The notes under the pieces were generated by a model. The model saw only the letters and a list, made by a program, of their open reading frames with translations, was not told where the DNA came from and searched no databases. The translations under genes and the position numbers were made by a program. A stretch of 33,910 nucleotides of DNA from a virus, in the IMG/VR virus record IMGVR_UViG_3300013126_000120, positions 1 through 33,910 of that record; one strand, 5' to 3'. Below are positions 646-8,137 of the stretch, one piece after another (the first letter of the stretch is position 1; each line of letters begins with the position of its first letter).

Positions 646-1389
646 ATGATGCAATCTGGTATGAATGACCCAGCAAAACAGCGGGTTATAGAAGAGATAC
701 TAAAGGACCTTCCTGTAAGCACAGATATAGAGGTTACGCTTCCTTCTGAATGTAAGGTATATGAATTGGATGACCCTGCTATGCCAATTACAATAAGACC
801 TATGACATTCGAAGATGAGAAGATGTTAGTGAGTGCTAAGAAAGAGCAGGATCCTATAAATTTGCTATTACAGAGATGTGTTACTAATGTAAAGATTCCA
901 GACCTTCTTTCTATAGATAAACTATATCTATTAATGAAACTTAGAGAAATTTCGTATGGTGATGATTATAAAACTCTTTTAATTTGTGGGCACTGTAAAT
1001 CAGAGAATCCAACTACGGTAAAGCTATCTCAACTTAATGTAAACCCAGTACCTGATGATTTTTGTGATCCTATAGAAGTTTTACTTCCCCAGCTTAACAA
1101 GAAGATAAAAATTAGACTTCCTAGAGTAAGAGACGAGAAACTAATGTCAGAAATTGAAAATCCCATGGAACATCTATGGAGATTTATTCTAGAGGTAGAT
1201 GGTCACGCAGACAAGTCTATTATCGCAGCGGTAATATCTAAGTTGCCAATAAGGGACATTAAAACCATTTTAAAGTGTCTGAAACTAGATTACGGAATCG
1301 ATACAAAGATTAAATTAAAATGTAAAGACTGTGGAGGGGTATCGGTTCTAGACCTGCCAATCGATGCAAATTTTTTCAACGTGAACTAG
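646..1389 (+). CDS. 26: gp26-like baseplate hub/tail assembly protein with two CxxC pairs
   Basis: This 247-residue protein resembles the T4 gp26 family, which acts in baseplate hub assembly. Family features are the acidic N-terminal segment followed by a conserved region around TIRPMTFEDEKML (49-61), and two CxxC pairs, C114/C117 and C226/C229, that probably bind one zinc ion. T4 gp26 is of similar size. The start has a strong Shine-Dalgarno (AGGAG, 634-638, spacing 7). A -1 frameshift signal lies at the 3' end, so this ORF probably makes two products, the 247-residue protein and a 308-residue fusion, like the G/GT chaperones of other tailed phages. Its position ahead of the tape-measure gene fits a chaperone role. 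Family assignment is fairly sure; the chaperone role is inference. Confidence 0.75.
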   Translation: MMQSGMNDPAKQRVIEEILKDLPVSTDIEVTLPSECKVYELDDPAMPITIRPMTFEDEKMLVSAKKEQDPINLLLQRCVTNVKIPDLLSIDKLYLLMKLREISYGDDYKTLLICGHCKSENPTTVKLSQLNVNPVPDDFCDPIEVLLPQLNKKIKIRLPRVRDEKLMSEIENPMEHLWRFILEVDGHADKSIIAAVISKLPIRDIKTILKCLKLDYGIDTKIKLKCKDCGGVSVLDLPIDANFFNVN

Positions 1390-1422
1390 AAGAGATTACT
1401 AATTTAGATAATCTTCTTCTAG
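1368..1422 (+). promoter_or_regulatory. Programmed -1 ribosomal frameshift signal (slippery site plus stem-loop)
   Basis: Two overlapping slippery heptamers lie in the gp26 reading phase: A_AAT_TTT (1368-1374) and T_TTT_TTC (1371-1377). After an 8-nt spacer a stem-loop begins at 1386. CTAGAAGA (1386-1393) pairs with TCTTCTAG (1415-1422), and GATTA (1394-1398) pairs with TAATC (1409-1413), with one bulged T at 1414 and a 10-nt loop. This gives 13 base pairs. The zero-frame stop TAG (1387-1389) lies in the base of the stem. Heptamer, spacer and stem are arranged as in known -1 frameshift sites, and the -1 frame is open to 1571. Confidence 0.8.
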
Positions 1423-1571
1423 AAGCCTATATATTGGTAAATAAGGGACATTTTACTTATACTGATGTAAGGAATATGACCCGTATGGAAAGAACAATAT
1501 TTACCAAAATATTAAAGGAAGATCTGGAAAGACAACAAGATGCTATTAAACGGATACGATCTAGTAGATAG
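1377..1571 (+). CDS. -1 frameshift extension of the gp26-like protein (small chaperone-like domain)
   Basis: The -1 frame is open from 1326 to the TAG at 1569-1571. A shift after F244 of the gp26-like protein adds 64 residues (QRELEEITN... to ...RIRSSR), giving 308 in total. The extension is helical and charged, with EAYILVNKGHFTYTDVRNM (16-34) followed by an E/R/K/Q-rich helix. This matches the style of short proteins found directly after gp26-type proteins in T4-like phages and of the T part of lambda GT. No good independent start exists: the first in-frame ATGs (1476, 1485) would cut off the conserved-looking first half. The end overlaps the next gene's start (1540) by 32 nt. In T4 the next gene is 51; homology to gp51 is not claimed. 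Confidence 0.7.
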   Translation, partial: QRELEEITNLDNLLLEAYILVNKGHFTYTDVRNMTRMERTIFTKILKEDLERQQDAIKRIRSSR

Positions 1572-6286: not shown

Positions 6287-8137
6287 ATGGCAGTGCCTCC
6301 ACAATTATTAATGGTTCTAGTAGAAGCTGTAGCCAAGTTTCCTAGCTTAATTGGGGCAACTAATGCTTTAAAAGATAAAATTGACGCTGCCATAGACTTT
6401 GCAGATAAAGCTCAAATGGCTTCGTTACAGTTAGGTAAGACCTACGATGAAACTAGAAAGACTCTAGGAGATCAGATAGAGGGATTAAGGGGTTCTCTAT
6501 CTGATAGATTTAGAGCGGGTATGGAGACTTTGAATGCTGGCTTAACTGGAAACACTATGGGTGTTTCTAGATTAATCAATCAGCAGATGTTAACTGGAAC
6601 TGCATTTAGGGCTACGGCTGATACTTTTGCTAAACTTGAGGTTGCTCTAGGTTTAACTAGAGAAGAAACCAATAGTTTAGCAATATCAATACTGAAGTAT
6701 AATCGTGAATATGGTGTAGCTACTGATAAGCTAGTCCAATCTCTAAACGCTTTAAGAGACACTATGCCAGTTCAGAAGTTAGTAGGACTAGGACAGAATT
6801 TCCAAGAAGCCATAGTTCAGTTACAAGGAATGGTAGGACCTCAACTAGCTCAAGAGCTTACTGGATTTGTTAAAACAGTTCTAGATCCTTCGTTTGAGAA
6901 TCTGTCTAGATTAGCAGGATTAGGAATCCTTGAGCAAAGAGAGCAATTACTAGCTAATAGAAACAATACTGAAGTGTTACTCGATCTTCTACAAGAGATG
7001 ATTAAAACTTCAGCAGATAGACTAAGAATGTTTGGACAAGGTGCAGGGTCAGAATTTTCTCTAGCAGCTATCCCAGCGATGTTGTTCGGTGAGAAAATGA
7101 TGGAAGCTTTGTCTCTAGCGGACGGACTTGGAAGAACAACCAAAGAAATTGGCGAAGTAATTGCTCAATATTATTTAACTATTCAAAGTCTTAAGAAAGA
7201 AATATTTGTTCCTATAGAAAATGCTTTAACAACATTACATGAACCACTAATGGCTCTGTATGAAGTTTTAGTTTTTGTTTCACAAACTATCGGAGTAGGT
7301 GTTGGCAAATGGTTAGAAGATACACTATCTATAGGATCCGACACCCTAAAGCAAATTAAGATAGGATTATTACAATTTTCTAAAGCAGTAGTAGAAATGT
7401 TTTATCCAATAGTAAGTTATATAGGAACTAATGCTAGTGGATTATTTAGATCAATCATTTCGGGAATAGTTGATGGGTTTATAAACTTCACTAAACCCGG
7501 AGGAATTCTAACACAACTAGAAGCAGCTTTTTATTCTTTATATGCAACAATACTGGATGTAGCTGATTTCTTTGGTGCTGATATATATGACGATGATATA
7601 GACGCTATAAGAAAAAAAGGAATTCTAAAAGAGATAGAGGTTTCAATAGCTGAAGGAGCAAAGAGTATAGCTGATTTGACTAAAACCCAGCAAGAAGCTA
7701 TTGAAGATTTTAAGTTAGGGGGCGTAGTAGCAGAGGCTTTTAGAACTTACAGTTTAGAATCTGATAAGAATAAAGCACTAACAAATCTTAGTAAAGCGTT
7801 AGCAGGTGAAGGCGATAAGCCTCAGATGGTTATTGCTTTAGAAAAAGCTGTTCAGAGATTAGATGCCGGATTGCCCTTAGATGAGAAAATGGCAGATCTA
7901 TTAGGAGAGATCGCTAAAAATACAAAGAAAGATCCAGAGCTATCTAAAACGGATTTCATGCGCGAAAGTGCAGAAAATCTTGCTATTGCGCTAGAAAAAG
8001 TTTTTGGAATAGGGACTATGGATTCTTCAGAAGGAATAATAAATGCCATTAATAATTTGAATGGCACTGTTCAGCTACGACAAACTATGGGTAAAATAAA
8101 CCCAGCTAAATTTAGATCAATAGAGGATGGATTCTAA
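6287..8137 (+). CDS. 29: Tail tape measure protein (T4 gp29-like role)
   Basis: At 616 residues it is near T4 gp29 (590), which sets tail length from inside the tube. At the usual 0.15 nm per residue this predicts a tail of roughly 90-100 nm. It is almost wholly helical, with long amphipathic stretches (about 1-300), a hydrophobic segment around 318-410 (ALYEVLVFVSQTIGVGVG, later MFYPIVSYIG and SIISGIVDGFINF) typical of tape measures that contact the host membrane, and a charged helical C-terminus. It follows the small gene at 5905 by one base and is directly followed by the tube-initiator-like gene, the standard place for a tape measure. The call rests on composition, size and position, not on strong identity to gp29. 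Confidence 0.75.
   Translation: MAVPPQLLMVLVEAVAKFPSLIGATNALKDKIDAAIDFADKAQMASLQLGKTYDETRKTLGDQIEGLRGSLSDRFRAGMETLNAGLTGNTMGVSRLINQQMLTGTAFRATADTFAKLEVALGLTREETNSLAISILKYNREYGVATDKLVQSLNALRDTMPVQKLVGLGQNFQEAIVQLQGMVGPQLAQELTGFVKTVLDPSFENLSRLAGLGILEQREQLLANRNNTEVLLDLLQEMIKTSADRLRMFGQGAGSEFSLAAIPAMLFGEKMMEALSLADGLGRTTKEIGEVIAQYYLTIQSLKKEIFVPIENALTTLHEPLMALYEVLVFVSQTIGVGVGKWLEDTLSIGSDTLKQIKIGLLQFSKAVVEMFYPIVSYIGTNASGLFRSIISGIVDGFINFTKPGGILTQLEAAFYSLYATILDVADFFGADIYDDDIDAIRKKGILKEIEVSIAEGAKSIADLTKTQQEAIEDFKLGGVVAEAFRTYSLESDKNKALTNLSKALAGEGDKPQMVIALEKAVQRLDAGLPLDEKMADLLGEIAKNTKKDPELSKTDFMRESAENLAIALEKVFGIGTMDSSEGIINAINNLNGTVQLRQTMGKINPAKFRSIEDGF

Follow-up and report, generated by a model that had tools for sequence, protein, structure and literature searches.

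We analyzed a window of 33,910 nucleotides (nt), positions 1 to 33,910 of the IMG/VR virus record IMGVR_UViG_3300013126_000120, in which a gene related to gene 26 of phage T4, and here read as a putative tail assembly chaperone (TAC) gene, ends on a candidate site of programmed -1 ribosomal frameshifting. In the zero frame, the 3' end of this gp26-like gene reads GCA AAT TTT TTC AAC GTG AAC TAG. Two overlapping slippery heptamers stand there, followed by a spacer, a hairpin and an open reading frame (ORF) in the -1 frame. The coordinates of these features and of the neighbouring genes are presented in Table 1.

Table 1. Features of the gp26-like locus and of neighbouring genes in the window (aa, amino acids; bp, base pairs).
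Feature	Coordinates	Strand	Remarks and basis
gp26-like gene	646..1389	+	Zero-frame product of 247 aa, proposed short form (TAC-N)
Slippery heptamer A_AAT_TTT	1368..1374	+	In phase; sequence
Slippery heptamer T_TTT_TTC	1371..1377	+	In phase, overlaps A_AAT_TTT; sequence
-1 frame extension	1377..1571	+	64 residues and stop; proposed C-terminal domain of the long form (TAC-C, gp51-C-like); phrog_634 match, pN/pS, AlphaFold2
Spacer, 8 nt	1378..1385	+	Sequence
Hairpin, ~13 bp with bulge	1386..1422	+	Arms ~1386-1398 and ~1409-1422; candidate stimulator; holds the zero-frame stop
Zero-frame stop TAG	1387..1389	+	Within the 5' arm of the hairpin stem, which begins at 1386
GAAGCCTATATA block (Glu-Ala-Tyr-Ile)	1422..1433	+	Nearly no synonymous change
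Next gene, 339 aa	1540..2559	+	ATG 1540 inside the -1 ORF, 32-nt overlap
Likely tape measure protein, 616 aa	6287..8137	+	Helix-rich composition; possible client

The sequence AAATTTTTTC occurs a single time in the window, both strands counted. By chance, approximately 0.10 in-phase heptamers are expected in the last 20 codons of a gene, and among the 23 window ORFs tested only the gp26-like ORF combined an in-phase heptamer in its last 60 nt with a long open -1 frame that was not accounted for by a following gene with an ATG of its own. The 64 residues of the -1 ORF are counted from the CAA at 1377 and end at the TAG 1569-1571, and no ATG, GTG or TTG stands in this frame ahead of the conserved domain. 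A profile search matched the -1 ORF to phrog_634 (gp51) with an E-value of 5e-4, and its AlphaFold2 model was helical, with a predicted local distance difference test (pLDDT) score of 90. The first-pass annotation of the locus had described two in-phase heptamers, an 8-nt spacer and a hairpin of about 13 bp enclosing the stop, followed by an open -1 frame coding for a 64-residue helical domain with no good start of its own. The window sequence agreed with the first part of this description, and the sequence, the AlphaFold2 model and the start-codon scan with the second.

A profile search of IMG/VR recovered 79 relatives with a complete gene end (identity 43-90%), making 80 loci together with the window; codon and selection statistics were calculated on 51 distinct sequences of the main clade. 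An in-phase T_TTT_TTY heptamer was present in 80/80 loci, the exact AAATTTTTTC in 58 of them, and the -1 frame was open for 158-188 nt beyond the zero-frame stop in 80/80. This stop was a TAG placed 9 nt past the T_TTT_TTY heptamer in 71 of the 80 loci and a TAA at the same spot in four. The Phe codons of the slippery site were invariant (TTT 51/51, TTC 51/51), in contrast to two other Phe codons, located in the -1 ORF, of which about half are TTT and half TTC. The ratio of nonsynonymous to synonymous polymorphism (pN/pS) was 0.30 in the -1 frame versus 0.87 and 1.52 for the same DNA in the other two frames; judged from these ratios, the -1 frame is under purifying selection as a protein. In the -1 frame, three loci had an ATG, GTG or TTG ahead of the conserved domain and the other 77 had none. 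The combination that the first-pass annotation had set against a frameshift, relatives with the downstream ORF and an in-frame start and no slippery site, was therefore not encountered. At the sequence level, the conservation across 80 loci settles the matter and confirms the slippery site as real. With the heptamer, the selection on the -1 frame and the scarcity of start codons in these relatives, a programmed -1 frameshift can hardly be doubted, and it almost certainly takes place near the end of the gp26-like gene.

In bacteria, RNA polymerase is known to slip on T/A runs. The longer product might come from slippage of the polymerase, and not of the ribosome, on the T run of AAATTTTTTC, and most members do carry six T, or in some relatives seven or eight, after three A. 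However, both the phase and the X_XXY_YYZ pattern are kept throughout, even where variants upstream (GTC or GAG, for instance) leave only the T_TTT_TTC heptamer, and in the window and its close relatives the hairpin stands at the usual ribosomal distance. We consider transcriptional slippage, a topic reviewed in PMC5009743, very improbable as the source of the long product.

The window hairpin had a minimum free energy (MFE) of -14.6 kcal/mol (z-score -3.7), and one out of 200 shuffles was as good. Over the 51 sequences, the mean MFE at the hairpin position was -10.2, on average a stronger fold than at most other positions, and the hairpin was strong in the window and the relatives closest to it. 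In the alignment of 38 sequences 85.5% of cells pair, while RNAalifold predicted no consensus structure at the hairpin in the aligned relatives. Several relatives that keep the heptamer are without the window-type hairpin or have a different one. We also observed that in loci L060 and L062 another short inverted repeat, GAGCTTATAAGCTC, stands just after the heptamer instead of the usual hairpin. The hairpin may stimulate the frameshift in the window clade. Downstream of it, the four codons of GAAGCCTATATA were more constrained than their flanks, with GAA in 48/48 of the Glu codons, GCC in 51/51, TAT in 50/51 and ATA in 51/51 sequences. This block may be an RNA element that serves the frameshift, and its motif is not enriched in the window.

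An independent set of 80 IMG/VR relatives of cyanophage gp26 had the -1 frame open at TTTTTTC just before the stop in all members, and the exact pattern was scored in 78. In 76 of these 78 loci an in-frame ATG lies between the heptamer and the conserved domain, so that independent initiation of the downstream domain is possible in this cyanophage-like group. Such loci would suit an explanation in which two separate proteins are made, the downstream domain starting alone by reinitiation at the gp26 stop or from an internal start, with no functional frameshift, and annotators do call gp51 of cyanophage S-SCSM1 from an in-frame ATG. In the same phage (L013 3678-3720), comparison with L092 shows additional bases (AATCCTAATAG) behind the gp26 stop that shift gp51 into a different frame; gp51 would therefore need its own start, which also fits separate proteins. 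By contrast, the downstream domain is startless in nearly the whole window clade, where the heptamer is invariant at the codon level, and at least one cyanophage-like locus (L127) keeps the heptamer with no ATG before the domain. We give separate initiation hardly any weight as the general explanation and retain the frameshift.

The gp26-like protein matched the Pfam family T4_baseplate (PF12322) with an E-value of 1e-19 and 71.4 bits versus a curated cut-off of 24.5, and phrog_150 with an E-value of 3e-26. The short form carries two CxxC pairs, C114/C117 and C226/C229, and a Phe-Phe at its C-terminus. Its AlphaFold2 model (pLDDT 87) matched the folds of gp26-type proteins of many phages in BFVD. 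A search by sequence for solved relatives returned none, and no name was found in NCBIfam. The best INPHARED match was approximately 33% identical, and by this measure the window clade is uncultivated, with no close isolate.

The T4 genes for gp26 (208 aa) and gp51 (249 aa) lie on opposite strands. Residues 1-201 of gp51 matched PF12322 with an E-value of 4e-52, as gp26 does, and its tail matched the C-terminal part of phrog_150 and phrog_634, a region that is also matched by the window -1 ORF and by the 54-residue gp51 of S-SCSM1. A direct hhalign comparison of the window -1 ORF with T4 gp51 alone was weak. T4 gp26 ends in Glu-Phe-Phe-Glu-Leu-Leu and keeps the Phe-Phe that elsewhere is the slippery site. 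On the strength of these profile matches, T4 gp51 is a gp26 paralogue composed of a gp26-like domain and a C-terminal domain equivalent to the window -1 ORF, and T4 therefore encodes a short and a long form as separate genes. The link to T4 genes 26 and 51 that had been drawn in the first-pass annotation thus rests on firmer ground than a reading of the sequence alone could give, through the PF12322 match of gp51 and the shared C-terminal domain.

Overall, we regard it as highly probable that a tail assembly chaperone is made from the gp26-like gene in two forms, a short TAC-N and a frameshifted long TAC-NC, as lambda does with G and GT. Most ribosomes would stop at the TAG 1387 and release the short form, and a minority would slip back one base on AAATTTTTTC, the hairpin just downstream probably helping. 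The slipped ribosomes would read on to 1571 and add the 64-residue helical domain, giving the long form. By analogy with lambda gpG and gpGT, the tape measure protein would be coated by many short and a few long copies, with tail tube subunits recruited by the C-terminal domain that the long copies carry; in T4, the two forms would come from the two paralogous genes 26 (short) and 51 (long). We infer the slippage itself and its efficiency, the role of the hairpin and the binding to tape measure and tube, and a tape-measure chaperone role in this phage is likewise suggested by the lambda analogy. Both lambda proteins are active in tail assembly and missing from the virion (PMC5009743). The resemblance lies in the pairing of a short form with a frameshifted long form, whereas the searches that we ran detected no sequence or fold relation to the lambda proteins, and the CxxC pairs belong to the gp26 family.

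Several results weigh against this two-form chaperone. Covariation in the hairpin was not above shuffles in the 38 aligned sequences, and loci L054, L071 and L072 keep the heptamer with a weak or absent hairpin. Conservation in related phages, which the first-pass annotation had proposed as a check, held for the heptamer and the -1 ORF, and the stem is not universal. The model of the N-domain had no significant match to solved tail chaperones in the PDB, the entry 3klu (YqbN) being reached only at an E-value of 5.5. In addition, the window gene does not adjoin the likely tape measure gene, as would be the case in lambda, and lies about 4.7 kb upstream of it, and the T4 literature describes gp26 and gp51 as hub assembly proteins. 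These last two points would agree with a real frameshift whose long product is a structural or regulatory part of the baseplate hub and not a tape measure chaperone, although reports contradict each other on the presence of gp26 in the hub (PMC3004832). The same T4 review lists both proteins as hub assembly chaperones, with gp51 essential, of unknown function and absent from the final particle. The short and long architecture fits tail chaperones, as does the gene order of Bacillus phage SP-15 and Listeria phage LIS04, in which the gp26-like gene immediately precedes the gene annotated as tape measure, as G precedes T in lambda. The reported identification of T4-like chaperone genes by Vladimirov et al. 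also argues against a hub part, which we judge improbable.

The chaperone reading has a precedent. The 2022 article of Vladimirov, Gautam and Davidson (Virology, 566:9-15) reportedly names genes 26 and 51 in its abstract, and the frameshift is said there to be conserved in several T4-like groups. The idea of a chaperone and a frameshift in T4-like phages is thus not new, and since that work had reportedly already identified the T4-like chaperone genes, the finding in the window is correct but largely known. Papers citing it report separate short and long chaperone genes in some T4-like phages (PMC10274946) and poly-T frameshift signals in the TAC-N genes of T4-like phages (PMC12846349), whereas a 2016 review had excepted T4 from the conserved G-T frameshift (PMC5009743). 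The window has in common with these chaperones, as PMC12846349 cites them, the gp26 family, the short and long forms and a poly-T slippery site where the short gene ends. It differs from them in its two overlapping heptamers, its conserved downstream nucleotide block and its uncultivated clade, and from T4 itself, which has two genes and no frameshift. In the Vandenendeviridae and Andersonviridae (phage Adele, PMC12846349), a conserved GTTTTT stands at the TAC-N end, with the -1 frame open in all genomes examined; those are other phage families, in which the gene is the immediate upstream neighbour of the tape measure gene. What the window contributes is an uncultivated T4-like clade with a well-conserved and easily testable frameshift site. 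It also gives independent support for the view that the T4 proteins gp26 and gp51, for years catalogued as hub proteins with an unclear role, are short and long tail assembly chaperones. For annotation, a correction is called for, as these genes carry the label "baseplate hub" in databases, where the -1 domain is omitted or called a separate gene.

Regarding the neighbouring genes, the ORF at 6287..8137, of a size close to the 590 aa of T4 gp29, had no family match in Pfam or PHROG profile searches, and the gene that follows the gp26-like gene had no confident family in the same searches. A late-promoter reading of GCCTATATA was rejected, the motif being single and not enriched in the window.

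Frameshift-like gene ends were also observed in more distant phages. Xanthomonas phage XacN1 and Stenotrophomonas phage RAS14 have T_TTT_TTT with an open -1 frame (XacN1-type relatives were not found in IMG/VR), and a 595-kb metagenomic phage has G_GGT_TTT then T_TTT_TTC, also with an open -1 frame. The matching extension of gp26 lies in the +1 (or -2) frame in SP-15, LIS04 and relatives, and likewise in Streptococcus phage GXN1. It is a tentative and rather doubtful proposal that gp26-family genes of very distant phages keep a recoding site at one Phe-Phe position but differ in which way the ribosome shifts there (-1 for XacN1/RAS14, the 595-kb phage, the window clade and the cyanophage-like set; +1 or -2 for GXN1 and the SP-15/LIS04 group), and that the nearly invariant 12-nt block after the hairpin is a new kind of stimulator in the window clade. 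In the SP-15/LIS04 group and GXN1 (L008 3640-3700, L010 3630-3690, L006 3700-3760, L172-L176), the zero frame reads xCC then CGA or AGA just before the stop.
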